IMG/VR virus record: IMGVR_UViG_3300002835_000605
Span: 1 to 34,497 of that record
Origin: a virus
DNA length: 34,497 nucleotides
Direction: 5' to 3' (one strand)
Under the pieces are notes generated by a model. That model was given only the letters and a program-made list of their open reading frames with translations. It was not told where the DNA came from and did no database searches. How positions within the stretch are numbered: position 1 is the first letter of the stretch; each line of letters opens with the position of its first letter. A program made the position numbers and the translations under genes. This document shows, piece after piece, positions 15,601-32,221 of this stretch.

Positions 15601-17679
15601 ATGGGCTATATTGGTAACGCTCCGTTTGGCGGACAAATCACTGGTGACAACGTCCTTGACGGGTCAGTTGGCACAGCTGATATAACCAATGGAGCAGTTA
15701 CGGCTGCCAAACTTAGTTCTACTGCTATTACTGATAAGCTTGGATTCACGCCGTACAATTCCGCTAACCCTAGTGGGTACATAACTAGTTCTGCGCTCTC
15801 TCCGTACTTAACGATTGCTAGCGCAGCTAGTACGTATCAGACTATCCTTACCTACTCTGACGTTACTACAGCTCTCGGATTTACTCCGTATAACAGCACA
15901 AACCCTAGCGGGTATATATCCGGCAACCAGACGATTACCGTCTCCGGTGACGCCAGCGGTAGCGGTACTACTGCAATCTCTCTTACGCTGGCTAACAGCG
16001 GCGTTAGTGCTGGCACCTACGGTAACGCAACAAACATTCCTCAGATCGCGGTTGACGCTAAAGGTAGACTTACTTCTGTTAGTAACGTTGCTGTTAGCAT
16101 CCCGTCCGGGTCTTTGACGTTTACCGGTGATGTAACTGGAACCGGATCGACTGGATCCAGCACGGCATTGACGTTAGCCAACAGCGGCGTGTCTGCCGGT
16201 ACGTACACAAAAGTCACTGTTGATGCGAAAGGCCGCGTTACTACCGGAGCATCGCTAGCCTCGGGCGACCTGCCTACCTACACCGGCACGATCACCTCAA
16301 GCCAGGTGACGACCGCGCTCGGGTACACGCCTCCGCAGCCAACCGGTACTGGTGCAAGCGGAACGTGGGGCATCTCGATCAGCGGCAACGCTGCTACGGC
16401 AACCACGGCTTCCAACGTAAACAACGGCACGTTGACAATGAACGTGTCGGGTACGGGGTTGTCTGGTTCTCAGACTTTTACGGCTAACCAGTCGAGCAAC
16501 GCAACGTTCACAATAACGTCGAACGCAACAAGTGCAAATACAGCAAACGCTATTGTCGCGCGTGATGCTAATGGTGCTTTTGTTGCTCAAGACATTACCG
16601 CCACTCGTAGTAACGGCACCGGCGTTATTTTCTTTGGTAATACTGGAACGCGATACCTTTTCTGGGATGGGACTAACTACGCCATGCCCGGTGCCAATCT
16701 TTTTGTTAACGGTTCTCAGGCCGTCACAAATAACGGTGGTACGTGGGGCATCAATATCTCCGGCACGGCCGCGTACGCAACCAACACTACGCAGGGTTTT
16801 GCTAGTAACTGGAACACCGACTTCGCCAACACGCCTGCTGGGAGCACAAGGCTTTCTGGCGACACACCTACTGGTAGCTCAACAGGTGGCCCCGGTGGAG
16901 TGTGGTGGTTCCAGCAAAACATGCGTCATACCAACGCATCAAACGTCTGGGGCGTTCAGGTCGCGTGGGGGTGGGAAGACAATGCTAACGTTCTTCGCAC
17001 TCGCAACGTACAAGGCGGCAATTACGGTGCGTGGGTCACGTACCTTAATAGCGCTAATTACACTTCTTATGTAACGGGTAGCAAATTGCAGTCACAGACA
17101 TTTACAGGTTCGGGCACCTTTACTGTCCCGACAGGCGTTACATCCGTTTGGGTCACCATGGTTGGTGGCGGCTCAGGCGGAGGCGCAAGCGCATACGGCA
17201 ACGGTGCTGGCGGCGGCGGTGCTGGCGCATATATGATCAAAAGGGCCGTTAATGTTACGCCGGGATCAGGAGTTGCTGTCACTATCGGTGGAGGGGGTGC
17301 TGGTCACCCTCCTGACTCTCAAGGTAACGGGTCTCCTGGCGGTGCTACTTCGTTTGGCTCAATTAGCTGCTCTGGCGCGCTTGGTGGCGGTGGTATTGGC
17401 CAACAGCAAAATTCACAGGCAGGCGCTGGTGGAGCGGTTGGTGGCGCAAGGCAATACACTTTCGCAGCGGGTAGCCTTGGCGGGCTAGTGGGTAGAAACG
17501 TAACGGGTGGCGTCAATTGGGGCGGCGGTGCAGGCGGCCTGTATGGTAACGGCGGTAACGCTAGCGACGCTTACGGTGAGAGCGCGGTTGGAAACTCCGG
17601 CGGCGGTGGCGGTGCTGGTGGTTATGGCGGCGGCGGTAACGGTGGATCGGGAATGGTTATCGTCGAGTGGTTAGCATAA
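15601..17679 (+). CDS. Long tail fibre with glycine-rich tip domain
   Basis: A 692-residue fibre. The first residues MGYIGNAPFGG match the start of the other fibre at 18310 (MAYIGNAPGF), probably the virion attachment peptide. The shaft (about 15-330) has repeats of LGFTPYNSxNPSGYI and TLANSGVSAGTY, as in phage fibre shafts. Residues 390-490 resemble the knob-like fibre modules with NWGxW-type motifs (NGGTWGINISGTAAYAT, then GGVWWFQQNMRH). From residue 498 a separate domain begins with FTGSGTFTVPTGVTSVWVTM and runs as glycine-rich loops to IVEWLA; this is the Gly-rich adhesin tip seen in many fibres. It probably makes contact with the host. The stop TAA forms part of the next AAGGAG ribosome-binding site. 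Confidence 0.85.
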   Translation: MGYIGNAPFGGQITGDNVLDGSVGTADITNGAVTAAKLSSTAITDKLGFTPYNSANPSGYITSSALSPYLTIASAASTYQTILTYSDVTTALGFTPYNSTNPSGYISGNQTITVSGDASGSGTTAISLTLANSGVSAGTYGNATNIPQIAVDAKGRLTSVSNVAVSIPSGSLTFTGDVTGTGSTGSSTALTLANSGVSAGTYTKVTVDAKGRVTTGASLASGDLPTYTGTITSSQVTTALGYTPPQPTGTGASGTWGISISGNAATATTASNVNNGTLTMNVSGTGLSGSQTFTANQSSNATFTITSNATSANTANAIVARDANGAFVAQDITATRSNGTGVIFFGNTGTRYLFWDGTNYAMPGANLFVNGSQAVTNNGGTWGINISGTAAYATNTTQGFASNWNTDFANTPAGSTRLSGDTPTGSSTGGPGGVWWFQQNMRHTNASNVWGVQVAWGWEDNANVLRTRNVQGGNYGAWVTYLNSANYTSYVTGSKLQSQTFTGSGTFTVPTGVTSVWVTMVGGGSGGGASAYGNGAGGGGAGAYMIKRAVNVTPGSGVAVTIGGGGAGHPPDSQGNGSPGGATSFGSISCSGALGGGGIGQQQNSQAGAGGAVGGARQYTFAAGSLGGLVGRNVTGGVNWGGGAGGLYGNGGNASDAYGESAVGNSGGGGGAGGYGGGGNGGSGMVIVEWLA

Positions 17680-17691
17680 GGAGTATAAGAC

Positions 17692-18066
17692 GTGGCACAT
17701 TTTGCACAGCTTGATGAAGACAACGTGGTAATCAAAGTCGTAGTGATTGGCAACGAAGATATATGCGACGAAGACGGAAACGAGGTTGAAAGTATTGGCG
17801 TCGCCTTTTGCCAAAGTTTATTTGGCGAGGGCAATTGGGTGCAGACCTCGTATAACGGAACGTTTCGTAAACGATATGCTGGCGTAGGTTATACCTATGA
17901 CGCTGACTACGACGCGTTTATCCCACCGAAGCCATTTGCTTCTTGGGTTTTTGATGAAGTCAAACTGAACTGGGCACCACCGGTGCCATTTCCGTCTGAC
18001 GGTGGACGCTACGATTGGGACGAAGCATCAGGCTCTTGGGAAGCCATTGCTGGTTCAAACGGTTAA
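17692..18066 (+). CDS. Conserved phage protein of fibre regions (AHFAQLDEDN type)
   Basis: A 124-residue protein. GTG 17692 is chosen because AAGGAG lies 8 bases upstream and the protein then begins MAHFAQLDEDNVVIKVVVI, the conserved start of a common family in cyanophages and other marine phages. Further conserved parts are FCQSLFGEGNWVQTSYN, RKRYAGVGYTYDADYDAF and PKPFASWVFDE, ending in the WxxP...W pattern. The family is found beside tail-fibre genes, but its function has not been shown to my knowledge. An accessory or chaperone role for the preceding fibre is inferred from position. A 65-residue protein follows 10 bases on. Confidence 0.75.
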   Translation: MAHFAQLDEDNVVIKVVVIGNEDICDEDGNEVESIGVAFCQSLFGEGNWVQTSYNGTFRKRYAGVGYTYDADYDAFIPPKPFASWVFDEVKLNWAPPVPFPSDGGRYDWDEASGSWEAIAGSNG

Positions 18067-18309: not shown

Positions 18310-19677
18310 ATGGCATACATCGGCAACGCACCAGGGTTCTCAACGCAGCGCATCGTGACTACGTTCACGGCGACTGCTGGTCAGACCTCGTTCTCGCCCA
18401 CCGGCGGGTACATACTTAATTACGTCGATGTGTACTACAACGGCGTTAAGTTGGTAGCGGGTGACGATTTCACTGCTACCGACATGAGCGCGGTTGTATT
18501 AACCATTCCTGCTTCTGCTGGTGACATGGTTGAAGTTGTCTCGTATGTACCGAGAGGCTTAACTGACGGTTACACCAAGGTTGAAGCCGACGCTCGCTAC
18601 GAACCAATTGATAGCGCGTATACAAAAGCTGAAGCTGATGCCCGTTACGAACCAATCGATAGCGCCTACACGAAAGCAGAATCTGACGCTCGTTACGAGC
18701 CTTTAGACAGCGCGTATACAAAAGCTGAGTCTGATGCGAAGTACGCGCTGTTAGGTGCGAACACTGACATTACTTCGCTAAATCCTGACTACATAACGTT
18801 TGACCAGACGGCAGTCGTCACCGACGCTGTTGGCCGCTTGACATGGGATTCTGCGACCGGCTCTTTGCGCATGCCGATGCTCGGCGGTAATGCCGTTGCG
18901 TCTCTCGGTCAAACAATGCATGCGTATGTAACTAACGCCGAGTCGTTTACAATCAATAAAGGGCAGCCTGTATATCTACACTCTGCTCAAGGCGATCGAG
19001 CGACGGTAAAGCTGGCGTTTAATACTTCTGATGCAACATCGGCAAAGACTTTTGGTCTTGCCGCTGAAAACATAGGCGCGAATCAGACAGGCTACGTTAT
19101 TTGCCAAGGCGTACTAAGTAATATAGATACATCCGCTTACACTGGCGGAGCAACTCTTTACCTTGGAAGCACTGCTGGGTCGCTAACAACGACTAAGCCA
19201 GTAGCGCCAAACCACTTGGTTTATATCGGCGTTGTCGAAAAAACCAATGCTGGCGGCGGTCAGATTTACGTTCGCCCACAGAATGGGTACGAGCTGGATG
19301 AGATTCACGACGTACTGATTACGTCTCCTGCCAATGGGCAGATACTGGTATACGACGGCTCCACTAACTTATGGAAAAATCAAGCCCCGGCTGGCGGTCT
19401 GCCAGATTTAGTAGTCGTCTCTGGCACTACGCAAGCAGCCGTCGCTAACAAGCACTACGTTTTGACTAACGCTGCTACCACGACCGTCACACTTCCGGCT
19501 TCTCCGGCGGCTGGCGACGTAGTGTGGGTCACTGTAGAGAACGGCCGCATCGACAACGTGATTGCCCGCAACGGCCAGAACATTGAAAGCATCGCGGATG
19601 ACTTACTGCTCGACGACACGCAAGCGTCGCTGCAGCTCCGCTACGTCAACGCAACTATTGGATGGGTTTTGATATGA
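18310..19677 (+). CDS. Tail fibre A (first cassette)
   Basis: A 455-residue fibre with GAGGT before ATG 18310. It begins with MAYIGNAPGF, shared with the fibre at 15601, then a beta-rich domain with FTATAGQTSFSPTGGY and VDVYYNGVKL, a domain widely seen at the N-terminus of phage fibres. Residues 88-151 are four 16-residue repeats of YTKAEADARYEPIDSA type, a coiled or spiral shaft. Residues 160-360 form a central beta-rich domain. Residues 364-455 are a 92-residue module also present at the end of the fibre at 20838. The stop overlaps the start of the tip gene as ATGA. Fibre and tip probably form one receptor-binding unit. Confidence 0.85.
   Translation: MAYIGNAPGFSTQRIVTTFTATAGQTSFSPTGGYILNYVDVYYNGVKLVAGDDFTATDMSAVVLTIPASAGDMVEVVSYVPRGLTDGYTKVEADARYEPIDSAYTKAEADARYEPIDSAYTKAESDARYEPLDSAYTKAESDAKYALLGANTDITSLNPDYITFDQTAVVTDAVGRLTWDSATGSLRMPMLGGNAVASLGQTMHAYVTNAESFTINKGQPVYLHSAQGDRATVKLAFNTSDATSAKTFGLAAENIGANQTGYVICQGVLSNIDTSAYTGGATLYLGSTAGSLTTTKPVAPNHLVYIGVVEKTNAGGGQIYVRPQNGYELDEIHDVLITSPANGQILVYDGSTNLWKNQAPAGGLPDLVVVSGTTQAAVANKHYVLTNAATTTVTLPASPAAGDVVWVTVENGRIDNVIARNGQNIESIADDLLLDDTQASLQLRYVNATIGWVLI
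18571..18762 (+). repeat. Four tandem 48-bp repeats in fibre A shaft
   Basis: Four in-frame 48-base units encode YTKVEADARYEPIDSA and three variants of it, the last degenerate (YTKAESDAKYALLGAN). The 16-residue YTKxExDxRY repeat is common in phage fibre shafts. Copy number here could change by slippage or recombination and so alter fibre length. Confidence 0.85.
19399..19674 (+). repeat. Fibre-end module, copy 1 (92 codons)
   Basis: The last 92 codons of fibre A align without gaps to the last 92 codons of the fibre at 20838 (copy 2, 21432-21707). By hand count 59 of 92 residues are identical, including VSGTTQ, GDVVWVTV, DNVIARNG, and QLRY. The modules end both fibres right where the tip gene begins, which suggests a docking or trimerisation function. 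The nucleotide sequences have diverged well beyond a recent duplication. Confidence 0.85.
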
Positions 19678-20186
19678 CCGCTCTTAGCAGCCTAAGGTCT
19701 GGCGGAAAGCCAAAACAAGTAACTACGTATACAAGTGGAACTGGAACATATACGCCTACCGCCGCTAATGCGTGGTGCTACGTCACTCTCGTCGGCGGAG
19801 GCGGAAATGGTGGCGGCGGCTCCGGTGACGGCGGGTCTGCTGCAGCTGTATGGACACAGTGGATAAAGTTGTCAGGGGCTACTTCTTATGCTGTTGGAGC
19901 TGGCGGCGGCGGCAACACTACGTTTGGCTCGTTAACCGCAGTTGGAGGTAGATCCGGCGGCGGCAACTTCTCTCAGGGTAGTGACGCTGGCGGAGGAGCT
20001 GGTGGTTTTAATGGACAGTCGTCGCAATATGGCGCAGGAGGTTCTGGATCTGGCTACGGGGGTGTAAACGGTGGTAACGCAACTGGCTACGGAGCCGGTG
20101 GGGGCGGCGCCGGGTACTACTACGGCGGGCGGGATGCTGGCAGCGGGTCTGGCGGTTTAATTATCATTGAGGATTTTGGACCATGA
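19674..20186 (+). CDS. Glycine-rich fibre tip protein (cassette A)
   Basis: A 170-residue protein starting at ATG 19674, which overlaps the stop of fibre A as ATGA; the in-frame ATG at 19662 is 12 bases upstream and would also be possible. After a short lead peptide (TALSSLRSGGKPKQ) the strand pattern YTSGTGTYTPTAANAWCYVTLV begins the same Gly-rich adhesin domain that is fused to the fibre at 15601. The rest is polyglycine-type loops with scattered aromatic residues, ending in GLIIIEDFGP. Such Gly-rich domains make sandwiches of polyglycine-II helices in T-even type adhesins and carry the receptor specificity in variable loops. It probably sits at the end of fibre A. The next gene overlaps it as ATGA. 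Confidence 0.8.
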   Translation: MTALSSLRSGGKPKQVTTYTSGTGTYTPTAANAWCYVTLVGGGGNGGGGSGDGGSAAAVWTQWIKLSGATSYAVGAGGGGNTTFGSLTAVGGRSGGGNFSQGSDAGGGAGGFNGQSSQYGAGGSGSGYGGVNGGNATGYGAGGGGAGYYYGGRDAGSGSGGLIIIEDFGP

Positions 20187-20602
20187 AGCGTTGGGCATTG
20201 ATTGAAGACGGAAAAGTAACAAATGTCGTCGAGCAGGCCACGCAGCCGGTATTGTTTGGTTCATGGGTTGAAACGCCGACGCACTATGTTAGCCCCGGTT
20301 GGAGTTATATAGATGGCGAATTCGTTGACCCACGTCCGCCGATCACTATTCCTAACATTATCACAAAGGTGTCGTTTCGTTTCCGCATGACCGACACTGA
20401 GTATGTCGGCGTTCTGACCGCTGCCAAGACCGACGTTGAGGTCCAGGCTTGGGTCGAGACCTTCAACATGGTGTCACAGGTCAACTTGTCGGACGAACGA
20501 ACCGTGGCCGGACTTAACGTCTTGGTCAGCAAAGGTCTGCTCACCCAAGAGCGGGCTACAGAAATACTGTCTACTACCGTACTAGAGGGGGAAAGGCCGT
20601 AA
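20183..20602 (+). CDS. Fibre cassette accessory protein A (possible chaperone)
   Basis: A 139-residue protein in two parts. Residues 1-53 (MKRWALIEDGKVTNVVEQ to GWSYIDGEF) form a small beta domain common in short phage tail proteins, including fibre-assembly proteins. Residues 60-139 are helical and align gap-free with the 80 C-terminal residues of the protein at 23184 (44 of 80 identical by hand count), including ETFNMVSQ, LLxxER and the ending ERP. It overlaps the tip gene upstream (ATGA) and the next gene downstream (TAATG). A chaperone or fibre-maturation role is inferred from its position after the tip gene in both cassettes. It is not proven. Confidence 0.75.
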   Translation: MKRWALIEDGKVTNVVEQATQPVLFGSWVETPTHYVSPGWSYIDGEFVDPRPPITIPNIITKVSFRFRMTDTEYVGVLTAAKTDVEVQAWVETFNMVSQVNLSDERTVAGLNVLVSKGLLTQERATEILSTTVLEGERP

Positions 20603-20823
20603 TGTCCAGAGCCAGAACACTAGCCAGCGCCATCGGTTCCGACGGTGCGCTTAACGTAGGCGACGTCGCGGGGCTGCATACGGTCGCGTCTACGGGTCTT
20701 TTTTCGGACCTTATGAGTAAACCCACAACCCTGGCCGGATATGGTATAACAGACGCGGCCACGCAACAGTACGTCGCTGATTCCATTGGAGAAGTAGAAG
20801 CGCTCGCGTTGGCGGGCATTTAG
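20602..20823 (+). CDS. Short tail-fibre-type protein
   Basis: A 73-residue protein whose ATG overlaps the upstream stop (TAATG). It contains ALNVGDVAGLHTVASTG and then FSDLMSKPTTLAGYGITDA, the KPTTLxGYGITDA motif being a hallmark of phage fibre shafts such as those of lambda-like and T4-like phages. Here it stands alone, and the protein ends with a short Ala-rich helix just as the small fibre protein at 15048 does. It precedes the second fibre cassette and may be its base or a detached shaft piece. The GAGGT ribosome-binding site for the next gene follows its stop. Confidence 0.65.
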   Translation: MSRARTLASAIGSDGALNVGDVAGLHTVASTGLFSDLMSKPTTLAGYGITDAATQQYVADSIGEVEALALAGI

Positions 20824-20837
20824 AGAGGTACGGCCAA

Positions 20838-21710
20838 ATGCCAGTCAATATATCGGTTTTTGAGTCCAGCCTTCAGTCAAAACTGAACGGTACTACTGGC
20901 TCAAGCAGTGGTACTGAGTTCTTACTCCTGTCCAAGTCGCTCAACGAGCTTAACACAGGTTTTACCGCTACCGTTGCTGCTGTTAACGATCTTCCTGCCG
21001 CAGCTGGAAATGCTGGGCGAATCATTTTTGTCACCGCAACCAACCTGCCGTACTACAGCAACGGCACGTCTTGGAACTCAATCAGCGGCACGGTTTCCAG
21101 CATCTCGGTGTCCGGTGGTACGACCGGTCTTACGACTACTGGTGGCCCGATCACTGCGAGTGGGACGATCACGCTTACCGGTACTCTTACGGTAGCTAAC
21201 GGTGGTACCGGCGCAACAACCGAGTCTGGTGCCCGAACGGCGCTTGGTGTACCCAGCCTGACAGGTACTGGAGCGACCGGCTCCTGGGACATCTCAGTCA
21301 CCGGCACCGCGTCCAACGTTACCGGTGTTGTTGCCGCTGCCAACGGTGGCACTGGCATTACATCTCCTGGCGTGGCTGGGAACGTCCTTACCTCTGACGG
21401 CACCGCATGGGTAAGCACGCCTGTTCAGGGGTTGCCCACCGCGAATATTGTAAGCGGCACGACTCAGCAGGCCGTAGCACTCAACCACTACATTCTGGTC
21501 AACGCAGCAGCGACCACGGTCACGCTGCCAGCGACCCCGTCGCTTGGCGATGTGGTGTGGGTGACGGTGGCTAACGGCAGAACAGACAACGTCATCGCAA
21601 GGAACGGATCAAATATCCAGTCCCTTGCAGAGAATCTTACGATTAACGCGGCCTACGCCGCTGTTCAACTTCGGTATGCAGACGCAACGAGAGGATGGGT
21701 TTTCACATGA
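20838..21710 (+). CDS. Tail fibre B (second cassette)
   Basis: A 290-residue fibre with GAGGT before ATG 20838. The N-terminus (PVNISVFESSLQSKLN) is a helix, followed by a beta domain with TATVAAVNDLPAAAGNAGR. Residues 85-190 are a Thr/Gly-rich shaft with VANGGTGATTESGARTALG and a second VAAANGGTGI turn, both typical fibre shaft motifs. Residues 199-290 are the 92-residue fibre-end module shared with fibre A. It lacks the YIGNAP start, so it may attach to the virion differently, perhaps through the 73-residue protein coded before it. The stop overlaps the next start as ATGA. Confidence 0.8.
   Translation: MPVNISVFESSLQSKLNGTTGSSSGTEFLLLSKSLNELNTGFTATVAAVNDLPAAAGNAGRIIFVTATNLPYYSNGTSWNSISGTVSSISVSGGTTGLTTTGGPITASGTITLTGTLTVANGGTGATTESGARTALGVPSLTGTGATGSWDISVTGTASNVTGVVAAANGGTGITSPGVAGNVLTSDGTAWVSTPVQGLPTANIVSGTTQQAVALNHYILVNAAATTVTLPATPSLGDVVWVTVANGRTDNVIARNGSNIQSLAENLTINAAYAAVQLRYADATRGWVFT
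21432..21707 (+). repeat. Fibre-end module, copy 2 (92 codons)
   Basis: The partner of the module at 19399-19674. Both end in GWV plus two residues, and both are followed by a tip gene that starts within the ATGA of the stop and begins with M(S/T)xL and a GG motif within 12 residues. This repeated layout is the basis for calling the two regions paralogous cassettes. Confidence 0.85.
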
Positions 21711-23173
21711 GTACGCTCACTCAATTTACTGGCGGCGGCGATTCGATACTCGGGGAAGTCGTCGAGTTTAACGCGCGAACCAAAGGGTTTAGCTTTACTG
21801 ACGGTACTCGCGAATACATGCAGACCGGCGTTATCAAAGAGTACTCCTCTGCGTACGCGCCTCTTGTTGCATCAAATACGCTGTGTGGAATCAGCGTGCC
21901 TACTGATCCCCTCCATAAGGATTGGTCGTTCTTGTCGTACTCAAACTACTGGAACCAAACTTCTAGTCATGCTGGCGCCAAATTTTTTCAGCTAGGAACA
22001 GATCAAGCAAGCGGACTTCCGTACAAGCATATATGCCTAATTGGCAGCAACTACGCAGGCGCAGGTTCTACTTGGTTCAAGCATAAGTACGGCGTCAACT
22101 TTGCAAACACCGTGACCGCCCAGCAGGACGACGACGGTGGCGGAGTTCATTCAGTTCATTTGTTCAATAACCGGCTCGTGTTTAGTGGCTACCGCTCCTC
22201 AATGGATACTGACGCCAACGGCTTCAGTATGTTTTGGTCGACGGGCGCTAATAGCCCTACACAAAATGCTACTCGTAACTATCAGACTACATGGAACTGG
22301 GGCTACACGCCGATCCCAGCGGAAAATCAGACTACTGCGCTTTTGTGGACTATTTATGAGTACGCCAGAAGCGGGTGGAGCGCTAACGCCTTTAAGACCA
22401 CAGACGGCGTTAACTTTACGTCGCTAAATATCACTTCAGATCTACGTTATCCGGGTCGGTTTACTTGGTCTACTGTGGGTAACTGTTGGATTATGGTGAC
22501 ATGGGACGGCCGTATCATGACGTCTGCTGACGGACAGACGTGGACTCAACGGACTGTTCCGGTTGGTATGCCGACCTCTATAGGCCATTCTATGTTGTTT
22601 GGCTCTTCGGGGTATCGCTTCTGCGTAGATCATCCGACCCAAGGCACCATTATTTGTCTCGATAGTAACGATACAACTAGTCTGTACTTCCTTAAGACTA
22701 CAGACGGTATCAACTACACCCTCTTAAACGCAGCGAGTGCAAACCCCCACCTGCGTAATTATTTTTGGGGTGCATCTGGCTATCAGCCGCGCCTTATGCG
22801 GGATGGCGATACGTTGATTATGTACAACGTATCAACTACTAACGGTGACACTGCAGGTTCTACCATTGCCACCTCTACGGACTTTGGTCAGACCTGGACG
22901 CTTCACCCATTAATTTTCAACAACAACCCGCCAAGCAATACGTTGCAGACTGCCGGTGGTATTTACTTAAACTTTATGGGGTTAGAGAAGTTTGATTCTA
23001 AGTGGTACGGAATTTTCATGGCTCGCAACCAATACGGCACTGTTGGTACAAAAGCCTATGAATTAACAAACCGTGGTGGTTATTTCTCAGGCACGCCAAC
23101 CCATATTGGCGTAACTCAGGGCCTTTCGTTTGCAACCGGCAGCAGTTTGTCGCCCTATGTTCGGATTAAGTGA
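21707..23173 (+). CDS. Fibre tip with Asp-box (BNR) beta-propeller (cassette B)
   Basis: A 488-residue protein. I place the start at ATG 21707 (ATGA overlap, GAGAGG 12 bases upstream) rather than 21695, where the ribosome-binding site would touch the start. After the lead peptide STLTQFTGGGDS it is rich in beta strands with Asp-box motifs of sialidase-like propellers: TTDGVNFTSLN, TSADGQTWTQRT, TTDGINYTLLN and TSTDFGQTWT. The catalytic Arg triad of true sialidases is not evident, so it is more likely a glycan-binding receptor-binding protein than an enzyme, though a depolymerase cannot be excluded. It takes the place held by the Gly-rich tip in cassette A. Confidence 0.75.
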   Translation: MSTLTQFTGGGDSILGEVVEFNARTKGFSFTDGTREYMQTGVIKEYSSAYAPLVASNTLCGISVPTDPLHKDWSFLSYSNYWNQTSSHAGAKFFQLGTDQASGLPYKHICLIGSNYAGAGSTWFKHKYGVNFANTVTAQQDDDGGGVHSVHLFNNRLVFSGYRSSMDTDANGFSMFWSTGANSPTQNATRNYQTTWNWGYTPIPAENQTTALLWTIYEYARSGWSANAFKTTDGVNFTSLNITSDLRYPGRFTWSTVGNCWIMVTWDGRIMTSADGQTWTQRTVPVGMPTSIGHSMLFGSSGYRFCVDHPTQGTIICLDSNDTTSLYFLKTTDGINYTLLNAASANPHLRNYFWGASGYQPRLMRDGDTLIMYNVSTTNGDTAGSTIATSTDFGQTWTLHPLIFNNNPPSNTLQTAGGIYLNFMGLEKFDSKWYGIFMARNQYGTVGTKAYELTNRGGYFSGTPTHIGVTQGLSFATGSSLSPYVRIK

Positions 23174-23183
23174 GGATTAGACA

Positions 23184-23471
23184 ATGTCAGAAGAGTTTAT
23201 CTTTATTCCTCAGGTCGAGCCAAAAATCGTCACTAAGCTGGCGTTCCGCTATCGACTGACCGACGAGGAGTTTGTCGGGATCATCGATGCGGCGCAGACC
23301 AGCGTGCCGGTGCGAGCATGGTTTGAGACGTTCAACATGGTTTCGCAGATTAACCTCGCCGACAAGCGAACTGCTGACGGACTTGACGCTTTGGTTGCGC
23401 TAGGACTGTTGGAAGAGGAGCGAGTCAAGGAGATTATTGAGGCCCCCATCCAGCCGGAAGAACGCCCCTAA
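23184..23471 (+). CDS. Fibre cassette accessory protein B
   Basis: A 95-residue helical protein whose last 80 residues are paralogous to the C-terminal 80 residues of the protein at 20183 (for example AWFETFNMVSQINLADKRT against AWVETFNMVSQVNLSDERT). It lacks the beta domain that begins the paralogue and instead opens with SEEFIFIPQVEPK. It follows the tip gene of cassette B exactly as its paralogue follows the tip of cassette A, with the TGA of the tip gene fused to its GAGGA ribosome-binding site. A shared role in folding or mounting the tip is inferred. A terminator hairpin follows directly and closes the cassette. Confidence 0.75.
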   Translation: MSEEFIFIPQVEPKIVTKLAFRYRLTDEEFVGIIDAAQTSVPVRAWFETFNMVSQINLADKRTADGLDALVALGLLEEERVKEIIEAPIQPEERP

Positions 23472-23992: not shown

Positions 23993-25711
23993 ATGGCCTA
24001 TTTTAAGCTCGACCGGTTTAGCGGCATCGCACCGGGAGTCTCACCTAGACTTCTAGCAGACCAGTTTGGCCAGACGGCCGAGAACATTGATTTTGAGTCC
24101 GGGCGACTGACCCCGACAACTAACGACGTAGACGTATTCACGCTTCAGAGCGGTCTGCGACGGTCCATCTATTTCTACCGCGATACTAACTGGCTTGAGT
24201 GGAACCAGGATGGCGTTAAGGCCGTACCCGGTCCAATCCCTGGTGACACGCTGGCTCGCCTGTATTTTACCGGTGACGACTACCCGCGTATCGGTACCGT
24301 TAATACGATGATTGCTGGGTCGTCTGGATACCCGGCCAACAGTTATCGGTTAGGCGTTCCTGCCCCGGCAACTGCTCCGTCGATTACAAAGACGGGCACC
24401 CCTGACGAAGACCAGACGCCAGACGATGTCTCGTACGTCTATACCTTTGTAACCGCTTTTGGCGAGGAAGGTCCGCCTAGCCCTGCTACGGCTCCGATCG
24501 AGCGTACTGATACCGAAACCGTGACTATCACGATGCCGGTCAATCAGATCCCTAGCGGCAACTACAACTTTGGTGCAGGGTCGGTTAAGCGTATCTACCG
24601 TTCTAACACCGGTTCTACCAACACGGCTTTCCAGTTCTTGGCAGAAGTAGGACTTACGACCACTACCTATGCAGACACGACCCCGTCGGCAGGTTTGGGT
24701 GAAGTTATTCCGAGCGAGACCTGGATTGGCCCACCGGACGACAACACCAGCCTGTATCCAGATGGCCCTATGAAGGGCCTGATAGCCGTGGCCAACGGTG
24801 TGTTTGCAGGGTTCACCGGTAAACGGTTATGTCTCAGTGAACCGTTTTTACCGCACGCTTGGCCAATCGACTACAGAATTACCCTCGAAGAAAACATCGT
24901 AGCCATTGGAGCCGTGGCCAACGGCATCGTAGCCCTGACCAATGGCACCCCGTACTTTGTCACTGGCACCGATCCGAGCGCCATGACCGCTGTCCGTGTT
25001 GACCTGCCACAGGCCTGTGTCAACGTAAACAGCGTGGTCGATATGGGCAGCTATCTTCTGTACGCCGGGCCGGACGGCTTGGTAGCGGTCTCTGGCGGCG
25101 AGGGACGGGTAGTGACGCAGGGGTTGGTTAGCGCCAGCCAGTGGAACGCCAGCTTCAATCCTACGGGCTACCGAGCCTTCCGCCACGAGAACACTTACGT
25201 GGCGTTCTGGACTGAGGGCGGCGTGCACAAGGGTTTTTGCTTTGACCCTCGGGCCGAAGAGGCCGCGTTGTCGACGCTTACCACTGAGGCAGAGGTGCGC
25301 GGTGGTTACATGAATCCGAAGGATGGCGAGCTGTATCTGATCGTCGCCAACAAGATTCGTAAGTACCGGGGCGGTACGACCAAGCGCACGCTAACCTGGA
25401 AGTCAAAACAGGTGGTTATGCCGAAGCCGCTCAGCATGAGCTGGGTCTCGGTCCACGCACAGGCGTATCCGGTGACTGTTAAGGTTTGGGGCGACGGGGT
25501 ATTGTTTGCCGAGTACGGTCTGTCGTACGCCAGTGGCGTATACACCCAGACCGTTACTGTGCCAAACGGCGCAACGACAGGATCATTACGTGAGCCTGTG
25601 ATGCGTCTTCCACCGAAGGTGGCCCAGGTGTGGGAAGTACAGGTTTCTGGCGCGGTTGAGATCGACGAGGTCTGCCTTGCTCAGAGCATGGATGAGATCG
25701 CCAGCACATGA
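23993..25711 (+). CDS. Tail nozzle protein (T7 gp12 / tail tubular protein B-like)
   Basis: A 572-residue beta-rich protein with GAGGT before ATG 23993. Its start (YFKLDRFSGIAPGVSPRLL, then AENIDFESGRLTP) is typical of podovirus tail nozzle proteins, which form the distal tail tube below the adaptor ring. A fibronectin-like insert is visible around residues 140-240 (YVYTFVTAFGEEGPPSPA, then VKRIYRSNTG). From 250 the strands form a propeller-like body with GLIAVANGVFAGFTGKRL, GAVANGIVALTNGTPYF and LLYAGPDGLVAVSGG blades. The C-terminal part is a small beta domain. It is followed by a central fibre gene with ATGA overlap, so both probably make the tail tip together. Confidence 0.8.
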   Translation: MAYFKLDRFSGIAPGVSPRLLADQFGQTAENIDFESGRLTPTTNDVDVFTLQSGLRRSIYFYRDTNWLEWNQDGVKAVPGPIPGDTLARLYFTGDDYPRIGTVNTMIAGSSGYPANSYRLGVPAPATAPSITKTGTPDEDQTPDDVSYVYTFVTAFGEEGPPSPATAPIERTDTETVTITMPVNQIPSGNYNFGAGSVKRIYRSNTGSTNTAFQFLAEVGLTTTTYADTTPSAGLGEVIPSETWIGPPDDNTSLYPDGPMKGLIAVANGVFAGFTGKRLCLSEPFLPHAWPIDYRITLEENIVAIGAVANGIVALTNGTPYFVTGTDPSAMTAVRVDLPQACVNVNSVVDMGSYLLYAGPDGLVAVSGGEGRVVTQGLVSASQWNASFNPTGYRAFRHENTYVAFWTEGGVHKGFCFDPRAEEAALSTLTTEAEVRGGYMNPKDGELYLIVANKIRKYRGGTTKRTLTWKSKQVVMPKPLSMSWVSVHAQAYPVTVKVWGDGVLFAEYGLSYASGVYTQTVTVPNGATTGSLREPVMRLPPKVAQVWEVQVSGAVEIDEVCLAQSMDEIAST

Positions 25712-28443
25712 CGAAAGCTCGTACAGTCAAAGCAACGACGGTACCTGGTATTTCGAGCATACCGTCGAGCATTACGCCGGAGCTCCGTCGTTATTTAGAA
25801 AGCTTAGCTGAAGCGGTTGAGATTCGTCTTGGCCGTCGCGGTGACGAGCGTGATCGAGCGATTACACTTCGAGAACTGTTGGATTCCGGTCTGGCCGTTG
25901 AGCTAGGTAAGAATCCATATGTGATTGGGCCCCCTCCTCCACCACCGCCTCCGCCACCTCCGCCGAGTGCTACGCCTACCGCACCGACGAACTTTACCGC
26001 GACTGGCGGCTACTCGTTAATTACGTGTTTTTGGGATTACCCAAATTACGCTTATCACGGCCTGACCGAAATCTGGCGACACGACCAGGACATCATAGGC
26101 GACGCTCAGTTAGTTGGCGTCAGCTCAGGCATTTCGTTTGTTGACCCGGTTGGTGAAGGCGCGAGCTTTTATTATTGGGCGCGACACGTAAACGAGTTCG
26201 GTGTCGCCGGTCCGTATAACTCTATCAACGGTACGTTGGCCGAGACCGCGCTTGATGTTGAAGAGTTGCTAGACGTATTGACTGGTGCAATTACTGAGTC
26301 GCAGCTGTACGCAGATCTTAGGACTCGAATTGATCTGATTGACGCGAGTGCTGCGGTTACTAATTCTGTTGCTTGGCGTGTTGCGCAAGAGGCTGCAGCT
26401 CGTGCGGCTGCTATTTCAAACGAAGCGTCTACGCGAGCTGCGGCGTTGATTGCTGAAGCTGAGGCTCGTGGAACTGCGATTACCAATGAGGCTACTTTAC
26501 GCACCCAGGCGGACGATGCATTAGCTCAGCAGATAACTACATTGTCTGCTACAGCCGCCGGAACGTATGCAACGATTGCTGCGCTACAAGCTGAGCAGAC
26601 TGCTAGAGCCGATGGGGATAGTGCACAGGCGTCAGCTAGAGAGACTCTTGCTGCTCAATTGCGCGGTAACTATACCGGCACAGATGTAACGCAGCTTTCA
26701 GCTGGGCTGGTCTTTAGCGAAAGGCAGGCTCGTGTATCGGCTGATGGGGCGCTGTCTAGCCGTACTGATGCTTTAGAGTCTACGGTTAACAATCCTTCGA
26801 CTGGCGTAGTTGCTACTGCAAACGCAGTAACTAATCTTGAAACGCGTGTTTCAAACGCTGAAGGAGTTAACTCGACCCAAAGCTCCTCCATAACTACGCT
26901 GCAGAATACGATTAATGATCCGACAACCGGGCTTGCTACCAAGGCTACGGCGTCAGCGCTTACTGCGCTTGCGAATCGAGTTACGGCTACGGAAAACACT
27001 AACGATTCTCAGAGCGGGGCAATTACTTTACTTGAGAACACGGTCAATAGCCCCACGACTGGGCTCGCGACTAAGGCGTCTTCTTCAGCACTTAACGCGC
27101 TTGATAGTCGGGTTACATCTACTGAGAACACAAACTCGGCTCAGGCATCTGCAATTAGTGCGTTGGAGAGCACCGTTAACAACCCTACAACGGGTGTTAA
27201 TGCTAGTGCGACAAATATATCTAATCTGACTACTCGTGTGACTACGGCTGAAGGGACCATTAGTTCCCAAGCCAGCACGATTAACACCCTATCGACTACT
27301 GTCGGTAATAACACATCGGCGATACAAACAAACGCTTCGACTATCAACGGAATTCAAGCTAAGTATACCGTCAAGATTGACAACAACGGTCATGTGTCAG
27401 GCTTTGGTCTTATCTCTGAGCCTAACAACGGCTCTGTAGTATCTTCGTTCATCGTTAACGTTGACCGGTTTGCTATTGCATCACCTGGGCAGACGACAAT
27501 TATTCCGTTCATTGTTCAGGCTACTCCGACAACGATTAACGGTGTGTCGGTGCCTGCTGGCGTCTACATGAACGACGCTTACATTCGTAACGGCACGATT
27601 ACTAACGCTAAGATTGGTAACGCGGCAATTGATGACGCGAAGATTGCGAGCCTTAGCGCCGATAAGATTACGGCTGGTTCGATTGATGCGGCTAGACTGA
27701 CTATTGATAACGTTACGCTTGATACGTACTACGATGGAAGTATTGGTCGTAATCGGTTGCAGATTAGAGATCTTGGAGTTACTACCGCTAAGATCGGTAC
27801 TGCAGCTATTACTAGCGCCAAGATTGGTAACGCTGAAGTCGGCACGCTAAAAATTGCCGGAAACGCAATTACTCTTCCTGAGACATACGCTTCAGCAGAC
27901 GTGTATGTGACTACTGGTGTGTATGAGTCTGGCGGTAGTTATACGTACGTTGGCCCAGGTAATGGCGACTATGTGTATGTAGACGATCCGTTCTACGACT
28001 ATTTTTATGTCGGGGCCGGTAATGGAGACTACATAATTAGTGGTGGCGGTACGTTAACTGGTGGTCATTTGGCCATTGAAACGCCTCAGATTGACGTCGG
28101 CGTTGACTCAACGGCTGGTGTGCAGATTGTGTTTTACGCGTTCTGCGATGGAAGCGCAGTGAATGACGGTGGCCAGCTGCTTTACATGCAGGTGAATAAG
28201 TACGCTAACGGCTCGTGGTCTGGGTATCAGACTGTAGCTACCAGTAGAGTTGGTGCAAGAACTACTGGCGGTGACACACAGAGCGTGTTTTCTATTGCTA
28301 TGGCGCACACCGCTGTGAATTTGCAAAACGTTAGAGTGCGTGTGATTGTTGGATCTCAAGCGGTTCACTTGCCACTTGGTACTAATAGCCAGCCAACTTA
28401 CCTTCGTAACATTACGCTTTCTATTCTTGGTGCAAAACGATGA
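25708..28443 (+). CDS. Central tail fibre/tip protein with lambda J-like DUF1983 segment
   Basis: A 911-residue protein. Residues 1-70 are a helical head (ELRRYLESLAEAVEIRLG). Residues 74-85 are twelve prolines in a row, a rigid hinge. Residues 90-180 form a fibronectin type III-like domain. A long Ala/Thr/Asn-rich coiled region follows (180-545) with four 42-44 residue repeats. Around 553 the segment YTVKIDNNGHVSGFGLIS followed by VDRFAI is the DUF1983 pattern of the lambda host-specificity protein J. After it come TNAKIGNAAIDDAKI-type shaft turns and a C-terminal beta domain with SYTYVGPGNGDYVYV. It is probably the central fibre of the tail tip that contacts the cell surface. Confidence 0.8.
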   Translation: MTKARTVKATTVPGISSIPSSITPELRRYLESLAEAVEIRLGRRGDERDRAITLRELLDSGLAVELGKNPYVIGPPPPPPPPPPPPSATPTAPTNFTATGGYSLITCFWDYPNYAYHGLTEIWRHDQDIIGDAQLVGVSSGISFVDPVGEGASFYYWARHVNEFGVAGPYNSINGTLAETALDVEELLDVLTGAITESQLYADLRTRIDLIDASAAVTNSVAWRVAQEAAARAAAISNEASTRAAALIAEAEARGTAITNEATLRTQADDALAQQITTLSATAAGTYATIAALQAEQTARADGDSAQASARETLAAQLRGNYTGTDVTQLSAGLVFSERQARVSADGALSSRTDALESTVNNPSTGVVATANAVTNLETRVSNAEGVNSTQSSSITTLQNTINDPTTGLATKATASALTALANRVTATENTNDSQSGAITLLENTVNSPTTGLATKASSSALNALDSRVTSTENTNSAQASAISALESTVNNPTTGVNASATNISNLTTRVTTAEGTISSQASTINTLSTTVGNNTSAIQTNASTINGIQAKYTVKIDNNGHVSGFGLISEPNNGSVVSSFIVNVDRFAIASPGQTTIIPFIVQATPTTINGVSVPAGVYMNDAYIRNGTITNAKIGNAAIDDAKIASLSADKITAGSIDAARLTIDNVTLDTYYDGSIGRNRLQIRDLGVTTAKIGTAAITSAKIGNAEVGTLKIAGNAITLPETYASADVYVTTGVYESGGSYTYVGPGNGDYVYVDDPFYDYFYVGAGNGDYIISGGGTLTGGHLAIETPQIDVGVDSTAGVQIVFYAFCDGSAVNDGGQLLYMQVNKYANGSWSGYQTVATSRVGARTTGGDTQSVFSIAMAHTAVNLQNVRVRVIVGSQAVHLPLGTNSQPTYLRNITLSILGAKR
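26773..27288 (+). repeat. Four 42-44 codon repeats in the central fibre
   Basis: Units start at residues 356, 398, 442 and 486 of the central fibre and run L(E/Q)(S/N)T(V/I)N(N/D/S)P(S/T)TG, a variable helix, then R V (T/S) and a Ser/Asn-rich end. They differ at the nucleotide level. The heptad-like positions suggest a trimeric coiled-coil shaft with regular loops at the NPTTG turns. Confidence 0.8.
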
Positions 28444-31154: not shown

Positions 31155-31829
31155 TTAGTCAACGATCCGACCGGTATGTTGTCCATAAACGGACTTGGCA
31201 TACTCGTAGTCTTCTTCGGTGGCCCAACCTACAAAGTCAGCTTCCAGATTCATGAACTGGGCACCGGCTTTGTTAGTGACGGAGACGGACTTAAGTTTCC
31301 AAAGACCCGAGAAACGGTTACCGCCTTTCAAACCAATGACCGAATTCCAGTTACGCGAGATGCGCATCTTCGAACTCGAGAAGTCCATGATCACTGGCGT
31401 ACGGTCAAGTTCACCTGTTTCCGGGTTCTTGATCAAAAGCACATGTGAATGGGTATCAGTGATGGTGTAGTCCTGCGGCTTGTCTTGGGACTTGATGGCT
31501 TCTTGAGCTTCGGCCAACGAGTTGAATGATCCAAGGATGCCGCCGCCTGAATCGCGGTTACGCCATACAACGAACTCGTTGCGGAACAACAAGTTGATTA
31601 CGTACAGCTCTTCGCCATAGTTCTGGCCAGTCAAGGAGTTTAAGAAGTGACCAGGCTCAGCACCTTGAATGTATTTGGAGTTGTACTTGTCCACCTCGTC
31701 AGACATCTTTTGAAGAAGCTTGACGCGAGGGATAGTTACGTTTTGGCCGACATTCTCGTTACCAAGGCCAGTGCCTTGCATAACGTGGGCAGGAACGTTG
31801 GACGATACAAGAGCGATTGCATTAGACAT
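31155..31829 (-). CDS. Conserved phage replication-region protein, possible ssDNA-binding
   Basis: A 224-residue protein beginning MSNAIALVSSNVP with AGGAAT upstream. The middle has IPRVKLLQKMSDEV, then GAEPGHFLNSLTGQNYGEEL, VWRNRDSGGGILGSF and MDFSSSKMRISRNWNSVI, a layout I recognise from proteins next to recombination genes in marine phages. Beta strands dominate, with an acidic C-terminal end (WATEEDYEYAKSVYG). That combination recalls OB-fold single-strand DNA-binding proteins such as T7 gp2.5, but I see no decisive motif. The neighbours (nuclease and SNF2 helicase) fit such a role. Treat the function as inference. Confidence 0.7.
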   Translation of the reverse strand: MSNAIALVSSNVPAHVMQGTGLGNENVGQNVTIPRVKLLQKMSDEVDKYNSKYIQGAEPGHFLNSLTGQNYGEELYVINLLFRNEFVVWRNRDSGGGILGSFNSLAEAQEAIKSQDKPQDYTITDTHSHVLLIKNPETGELDRTPVIMDFSSSKMRISRNWNSVIGLKGGNRFSGLWKLKSVSVTNKAGAQFMNLEADFVGWATEEDYEYAKSVYGQHTGRIVD

Positions 31830-31849: not shown

Positions 31850-32221
31850 TTAGAGTGAACGAAAATTGATCTTACGGATTGTCCTTGGTGAAAGGCCGGG
31901 GACTCCTTCCCCGAGTTTCAACAGCTCTTTATAAGCCGTTGAGCTTACCCGTCTTTGGATCAAGCTAAAGTCACGGGTAGAAATAACGTGATTGTACAAA
32001 GCGTCCCAATCTTCTACTTCCGGTACCGTGTCTTCATTGATGGATACCGAGTAATCGCCATTCGCAGTGCGAGACAATCCCTCAGCGTCCATTTTCTTTA
32101 AAAGCGCCAGGTCGATTTCGTCCTGAGCGGTTTTCAAATCTTTCAGCCGGTTGTTCAGCTGTTCGGTTTCGCGCTTGATTTCGGCGCGACGTTCTATAAG
32201 GTCGTTGATGCTTACGGTCAT
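31850..32221 (-). CDS. Conserved coiled-coil phage protein (hypothetical)
   Basis: A 123-residue protein whose start overlaps the helicase stop (ATGA at 32221-32218). The first 45 residues form a coiled coil (LIERRAEIKRETEQLNNRL). They are followed by a conserved-looking part DYSVSINEDTVPEVEDWD, then LIQRRVSSTAYKELLKLGEG and VPGLSPRTIRKINF. The order coiled coil, VSINE, DWD, QRR, VPG is one I recognise in uncharacterised phage proteins next to helicases and recombination genes. Function unknown; it could be a helicase partner. Confidence 0.75.
   Translation of the reverse strand: MTVSINDLIERRAEIKRETEQLNNRLKDLKTAQDEIDLALLKKMDAEGLSRTANGDYSVSINEDTVPEVEDWDALYNHVISTRDFSLIQRRVSSTAYKELLKLGEGVPGLSPRTIRKINFRSL

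Follow-up and report, generated by a model that had tools for sequence, protein, structure and literature searches.

A recurrent fibre-end module followed by separately encoded, unlike tips in a viral genome, and a candidate joint for tip exchange

We analysed a stretch of viral DNA of 34,497 bases, IMG/VR record IMGVR_UViG_3300002835_000605 over its whole length (the window hereafter), in which two neighbouring tail-fibre cassettes each pair a fibre gene with a separate gene for a tip. The two fibres end in a common 92-residue module, the dock, and the tip bodies are unlike. We consider it likely that the tips are separate polypeptides, held through a short lead peptide at their start by the dock, a socket with the fold of the XD1 domain of CBA120 TSP4, and that they are exchanged together with the N-terminal domain (N-domain) of a tip chaperone. 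Such a layout may let phages change their binding target by trading one part.

Three fibre units lie in a row on the plus strand: fibre U, cassette A (18310-20602) and cassette B (20602-23471). Cassette A consists of fibre A (18310-19677, 455 residues), tip A (19674-20186, 170 residues, Gly-rich) and accessory A (20183-20602, 139 residues). Cassette B consists of a 73-residue fibre piece (20602-20823), fibre B (20838-21710, 290 residues), tip B (21707-23173, 488 residues) and accessory B (23184-23471, 95 residues). A first-pass annotation, made from the letters alone, had described most of this arrangement, and our recount bore it out. The two docks (dock A, 19399-19674, of a subtype ending NATIGWVLI; dock B, 21432-21707) align without gaps and are identical at 59 of 92 residues, as had been counted. 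Their DNA is identical at 166 of 276 positions, with 61, 75 and 30 matches of 92 at codon positions 1, 2 and 3, a pattern that points to an old relationship kept at the protein level and not to a recent copy. Both tip genes begin in the ATGA of the fibre stop, the ATG lying one base ahead of the stop (at 19674 and 21707), and have the M(S/T)xL...GG start described before: MTALSSLRSGG in tip A and MSTLTQFTGGG in tip B. We call the first seven residues, MTALSSL (19674-19694) and MSTLTQF (21707-21727), lead peptides A and B. The tip bodies are unrelated, as stated, and fall into different blastp clusters. The accessory proteins share a gap-free helical domain (20342-20599 in accessory A, 23211-23468 in accessory B) that is identical at 46 of 86 residues, so that the earlier count of 44 of 80 was about right.

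The arrangement is a recurrent architecture. Viral contigs were scanned with both modules and both accessory domains as queries and then with enlarged alignments (one scan contributed the best 80 of 155), which gave a collection of 220 loci on 131 contigs, including two named phages and the window; L and C numbers below are our handles for loci and cassettes. The first-round profile of the module was used; rounds 2 and 3 drifted (from 86 to 120 and 124 matches, with internal repeats). Among close relatives, window included, there were 112 module copies on 99 contigs, 98 of them C-terminal with at least 200 nucleotides downstream. A gene starting in the ATGA of the stop follows 92 of these 98 (both window copies among them), counts that are inflated, as the copies are not independent and several contigs hardly differ from the window or among themselves. 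The first-pass annotation had proposed a search for the module followed by different tips in other phages; besides this count, the search returned several unlike tip families.

Some loci depart from the ATGA overlap. In L212 and L213, the lead-bearing gene begins at the last base of the dock-fibre stop codon, and in Roseobacter phage CRP-2 a lead-like gene (MSNLSDF) begins 21 nucleotides after the first base of the fibre stop. One gene is inserted between dock fibre and tip in L032, where the tip then starts MSTLTQF, and two genes follow the dock fibre in L118 before a tip starting MSLFTQF. No tip was found among the four open reading frames (ORFs) after the dock fibre in L116. A 34-nucleotide junction pattern (dock Gly-Trp with part of the next two codons, ATGAG, and the lead) had 49 matches in viral contigs, and the upstream ORF ended in a dock in 49 of 49 cases (E below 1e-5); 13 of the matches were on contigs whose names had not come up before, with E 4e-19 for the weakest of these 13. 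In genome contigs, docks were found at two loci (L227 and L228), both on contigs of metagenome-assembled genomes (MAGs) and both with ATGA and MSxFxQF leads. The two MAGs are labelled Paceibacterota and Burkholderiales, and either may be a misbinned phage contig.

An accessory domain away from fibre or tip genes, which the first-pass annotation would have taken as speaking against its proposal, was not seen among 66 accessory ORFs wherever enough sequence was available. The module without a following tip gene, which it would have taken in the same way, does occur in distant phages: the module is internal in a longer protein in four tandem proteins of HTVC023P and in a long fibre gene of Vibrio phage 234P1. 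Four of the 303 cultured-phage records matching the module were examined: these two, CRP-2 and, by its annotation only, Vibrio phage PG11. In HTVC023P, dock and Gly-rich tip form a single chain, four times. We read the distant internal modules as fused versions, and HTVC023P looks like the same joint closed covalently.

The existence of such fused proteins also favours another explanation, namely that fibre and tip are one chain in the window as well, made by programmed -1 frameshifting where the two genes overlap at ATGA, with the free tip as a by-product or minor form. In 30 distinct junctions inspected by eye, the tip frame was open over the five codons before the ATG. This openness, however, follows from the conserved dock residues, and no recurrent slippery heptamer was evident in the same junctions (by eye, unscored). 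Moreover, L032 and L118 retain the lead despite the whole genes inserted between dock and tip, and in CRP-2 the gene starts 21 nucleotides downstream. We regard a frameshift fusion as very improbable.

The lead common to unlike tip families reads M-S-x-[LF]-[ST]-Q-F, with Ser2, Gln6 and Phe7 each present in 28 of 30 distinct junctions. Leads were compared in 62 cassettes with distinct complete tips, which gave 1503 pairs between different tip classes. These classes were drawn by hand from terminal motifs and replaced single-linkage clustering, which merged Gly-rich tips, short tips and the Asp-box tip C60; C35 and C54 stand in class G1 though their starts are G2-like, and CRP-2 (C61) fits no class and was counted as G1. 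Across classes, agreement was 85, 86 and 88% at lead positions 2, 6 and 7, and 4-15% at positions 12-24. Where the residue at positions 2, 6 and 7 was the same, its codon differed in 40, 47 and 38% of the pairs. Sixteen pairs combined dock DNA that was at least 80% alike with tips from different classes; in all 16, 0-3 of the 6 lead residues were changed and 9-11 of the next 12. For example, L005, whose tip is identical to tip A, and L044 have docks that are 98% identical in their last 180 nucleotides and tips in different clusters; both leads are MTALSSL, and codons 2-7 show five silent changes and no others. These silent changes suggest that the lead was not simply dragged along with the dock DNA. 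Judged from sequence comparison, the lead is a protein-level feature.

A conserved tip-gene start might instead serve translation, through stop-start coupling, with the tips attached in another way. First codons influence initiation, and ATGA coupling is nearly universal in the close relatives (92/98) and in L032 it links the fibre to the inserted gene. Against this, codons vary silently while residues 2, 6 and 7 stay, and L005 and L044 both encode MTALSSL although five of the six codons after the start differ. We think a role in translation alone quite unlikely.

Co-variation among the parts was analysed by Mantel tests, which are independent of the hand classes, on 56 cassettes thinned for similar tips and on 38 with an accessory domain. 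In the 56, the lead tracked the dock (r 0.44; 0.43 given the tip body, p 0.0002), and its correlation with the tip body was 0.11 (p 0.056), or -0.03 given the dock. In the 38, the accessory N-domain tracked the tip body (r 0.76, which became 0.79 given the dock and 0.74 when Asp-box tips were left out), and its correlation with the dock was 0.20 (p 0.019) before correction and -0.39 given the tip, with similarities involving accessories that lack the N-domain set by hand in these tests. Such correlations might arise from ordinary linkage, if dock, lead, tip and accessory recombine as neighbours without functional matching. Neighbours correlate by descent, and dock did correlate with tip body (0.31, p 0.0002), as did the helical domain with the tip (0.30; without Asp-box tips 0.47, or 0.32 given the N-domain). 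Yet once the dock is allowed for, the lead shows no tracking of the body that it adjoins, nor does the N-domain track the dock once the tip is allowed for; and in the 16 pairs with similar docks the change to unlike sequence falls after the lead. Linkage as the whole explanation appears unlikely to us, and we prefer functional matching of lead to dock and of N-domain to tip.

The DNA is mosaic at these places. By blastn, the window is 92.6% identical to L055 up to 19583, inside dock A; no match was found through the tip, and likeness resumes at 20349, at the start of the helical domain. A different stem carries the dock and the first bases of the lead (19423-19681, 93%) in L057.

In an AlphaFold2 model of dock B (pLDDT, the predicted local distance difference test score, 97.5), the module has an XD1-like beta fold that matches residues 79-175 of CBA120 TSP4 (Z 15.4, 1.4 Å, 92 of 92 residues); T4 gp10 and T4 gp9 came next, a Foldseek search with the model gave E 1.8e-7, and dock A presumably has the fold of this model. 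We identified TSP4 79-175 as XD1 because the TSP4 fragment to residue 181 ends before XD2. In the TSP4 paper, XD1 is called a spacer, since linkers leave both of its faces so that no trimeric partner is held, and XD2 and XD3 are the partner-binding domains (PMC8825819). By that paper's own argument we infer that the distal face is free here, where the chain ends at the dock. The dock was first annotated as invariant; we found instead dock subtypes, each with its own lead (MTALSSL or MSxxxQF). With leads specific to the subtype, the tip of one cassette may not fit the dock of the other, even on the same virion. It is possible, though we doubt it, that the seven-residue plug is sufficient and coded: the A dock would go with MTALSSL and the B dock with MSxxxQF as orthogonal pairs, tips could not be mixed up within a virion, and trading between phages would stay within a pair type. 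If so, one tip standard would be common to phages of the aquatic pool.

The model of accessory A (pLDDT 95.6) consists of a beta domain and the helical domain. The beta domain is the N-domain (residues 1-53; 20183-20341), which the first-pass annotation had overlooked and which accessory B, having the helical domain only, lacks. It resembles residues 3-60 of Pam3 gp25 (Z 7.4, 52 residues aligned, 2.2 Å, 29% identity), and the next structure was Mu Tfa (Z 3.5). The helical domain is helical in the model, and the C-domain of gp25 was not among the structure matches listed. A search of PDB sequences with the accessory profile gave nothing significant. From its model, we take accessory A for a probable tip chaperone with two domains, similar in kind to Pam3 gp25.

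Among the 62 cassettes, both domains are present in 35, only the helical domain in 5 and only the N-domain in 13 (genes of 54-66 residues, assigned by eye from their starts and not by profile); the remaining 9 have something of another kind or too little sequence. The five helical-only accessories belong to the five Asp-box tips of the set (5/5). In C48 and C39, the accessories have 130 and 129 residues, 47 of them ahead of the helical domain. No helical-domain gene starts within 400 nucleotides of the tip in 21 of the 62 cassettes (in C29, one follows an inserted gene), and this domain also occurs with a different joint type, described below. The shared 80-residue part had been proposed as the domain that matches the tip; it varies less than the N-domain and is absent from many cassettes, and the N-domain tracks the tip body better.

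Under the reading that we favour, each cassette would give one tail fibre built of two polypeptides. The stem would end in a trimeric, XD1-like dock with a free distal face, since the chain stops there. The tip gene would be translated by stop-start coupling after the stem gene, and the tip would be held non-covalently on the distal face of the dock, with its first seven residues, M-S-x-[LF]-[ST]-Q-F, or MTALSSL for an A-type dock, as the plug. The third gene would encode a tip chaperone of the Tfa/Pam3 gp25 kind, whose variable N-domain would recognise the tip body and whose more constant helical domain would assist trimer assembly. Tip body and chaperone N-domain could then be exchanged between phages, because the parts that flank this unit, dock and plug on one side and the helical domain on the other, are conserved. 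If both fibres are carried by one virion and their tips bind receptors, two receptor specificities per virion, as first suggested, are plausible. The original proposal of a modular dock with interchangeable tips survives among close relatives (92/98 at ATGA), without its invariant dock and without the helical domain as the tip-matching part.

Several observations weigh against this reading. Near-identical contigs and the best-80-of-155 sampling weaken the 92/98 figure. XD1 is a spacer in TSP4 and the module is internal in distant phages, so that the fold alone does not make a socket. The silent-codon case concerns a single dock subtype; lead and dock are neighbours in the DNA, and part of their correlation can be linkage. 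The correlation of dock with tip body means that tip exchange is not free, and the correlation of N-domain with dock before correction and the hand-set similarities also count against the reading. The helical domain is not simply constant, given its correlation with the tip when Asp-box tips are left out, and since many cassettes lack it, docking in itself does not require it. The gp25 match, at Z 7.4, lies in the middling range of the tool. Finally, L032, outside the set of 62, breaks the Asp-box rule, because its Asp-box tip has a 148-residue accessory with an N-terminal part.

As for the tip bodies, stricter blastp clustering placed 32 distinct tips in 8 clusters. Tip A matches phrog_863 (E 1e-8). 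In a scan for PF21722, tip A had no match at E 5, L065 and L010 passed the cut-off, L034 fell short of it, and none was found in L063, L078, L012, L212 or tip B. A search of PDB sequences gave no match for tip A or L065. Tip B has four relaxed Asp-boxes, at 231, 273, 331 and 390 (1000 shuffles: mean 0.05, highest 2), no Pfam match, three weak matches among PDB sequences (the best, E 0.013, to a dirigent protein) and no match in a search among phages. Of the Asp-box propeller first annotated for tip B, the motif stands, with four boxes against a shuffle maximum of two; Pfam and PDB sequences gave no support for a propeller, and we call the body propeller-like from its motif. At L032 (3912-6804), a gene with a glycosyltransferase-like start, judged by eye, lies between the dock fibre and a 736-residue Asp-box tip.

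The first-pass annotation had also overlooked the third unit, fibre U (15601-17679, plus strand, 692 residues), which has a fused C-terminal Gly-rich tip (PF21722, E 7e-14), lies outside the dock-lead joint and is followed by its own accessory gene (accessory U, 17692-18066, plus strand, 124 residues, phrog_7759, E 1.6e-44). Fibres A and U start alike (MAYIGNAP and MGYIGNAP), and the row of fused dock-tip genes in HTVC023P ends with a gene whose start (MAHFAKLG) is similar to that of accessory U. From these two cases only, fused tips may pair with the phrog_7759 accessory and split tips with the helical accessory. The middle of fibre A is Phage_cement_2-like (PF09956, E 2.6e-5). The 73-residue piece starts MSRARTLASAIGSDG, and a similar start, MSRARLLAAAFGAD, opens a one-piece dock fibre in 3300042388_000089. 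Megablast of window positions 1-24000 against deposited phages gave no match. On the minus strand, 31155-31829 is Pam3 gp34-like (PF23977, E 1.7e-53) and 31850-32221 Pam3 gp33-like; the window thus partly resembles cyanophage Pam3, and the fibre chaperone of that phage also gave the closest structural match to accessory A. A 911-residue protein at 25708-28443 has lambda J-like tail-tip matches (PF09327, phrog_31) and stands beside structural genes of other kinds (phrog_399, phrog_511).

A second type of joint was seen in L029, L011, L025, L077 and 20 further instances. It consists of a fibre ending like GGAQDYIVQSYGIV, a conserved connector of 127-128 residues and a tip starting MN; the connector starts M(A/S)xxAQYA or similarly, which resembles the lead (Q, then Y or F, at positions 6-7), and the helical accessory domain follows where sequence is available. 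Of 22 distinct fibre ends of this joint (..AQDYIVQSYGIV), 2 matched the dock profile significantly and 20 did not. Rheinheimera phage Barba21A (L223:2585-5279), the one examined of 87 Rheinheimera records matching the accessory, follows the same order with a fibre, a 141-residue gene and an accessory that has the helical domain, an order carried by cultured phages of Rheinheimera sp. BAL341. A comparison of the dock with the C-terminal end of Rheinheimera Barba gp123 did not show homology (hhalign probability 1.8).

Separate tip proteins (T2 gp38), tip chaperones and the swapping of receptor-binding domains are already known. Our literature search, which covered few subscription papers and no preprints, found no terminal XD1 dock with a seven-residue lead common to unlike tips, and no accessory whose two domains are present or absent according to the tip. 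What the window adds is a candidate natural joint for tip exchange, with a candidate plug, a candidate socket and a candidate matching part of the chaperone. A change of receptor specificity without breaking the fibre becomes testable with three small genes, and metagenomes can be searched for tip repertoires by way of the joint.

The closest parallel is the gp37-gp38 pair of T2, PP01 and S16, where, as here (92/98 at ATGA), a separate tip gene comes right after the distal fibre gene. In these phages, gp38 is reported to have a Gly-rich receptor-binding body and to be attached by its N-terminus; the N-terminal part of S16 gp38 forms three short helices on a gp37 platform (PMC9608196), and PP01 gp38 failed on T2, which was ascribed to a mismatch with T2 gp37; to get round this, a chimera was built that carries the N-terminal 113 residues of T2 gp38 (PMC12892980). 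In contrast, the only start common to unlike tips here is the seven-residue lead, the dock is XD1-like, tip bodies include Asp-box and short ones, and a separate accessory gene usually follows. The modelled dock shares its fold with CBA120 TSP4, T4 gp10 and T4 gp9, but XD1 is internal there and the last domain of the chain here; in TSP4, other receptor-binding proteins are held by XD2 and XD3, its sister domains (PMC8825819).

Pam3 gp25, as described in PMC9608196, binds a distal TNF-like and Gly-rich fibre through a variable N-terminal beta domain and trimerises through a conserved helical C-domain. The co-variation of the accessories suggests the same division of labour here. The likeness to Pam3 gp25 and Mu Tfa, however, concerns the N-domain of accessory A only (Z 7.4 and 3.5), and accessory B has no such domain. 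The accessory domains also occur here together, N alone (by eye) or C alone, unlike in Pam3, and Pam3 gp24 is a one-piece fibre. Alteromonas phages A5, V22 and P24 are reported, in PMC10579305, to have in common a fibre and chaperone found in distantly related marine phages; there the whole host-recognition module is shared, whereas the break here lies between stem and tip of one fibre. Similarly, PMC10684548 describes receptor-binding proteins with the same N-terminal part and an unrelated C-terminal receptor-binding domain; that swap takes place within one polypeptide, whereas here it takes place between polypeptides with a conserved joint.

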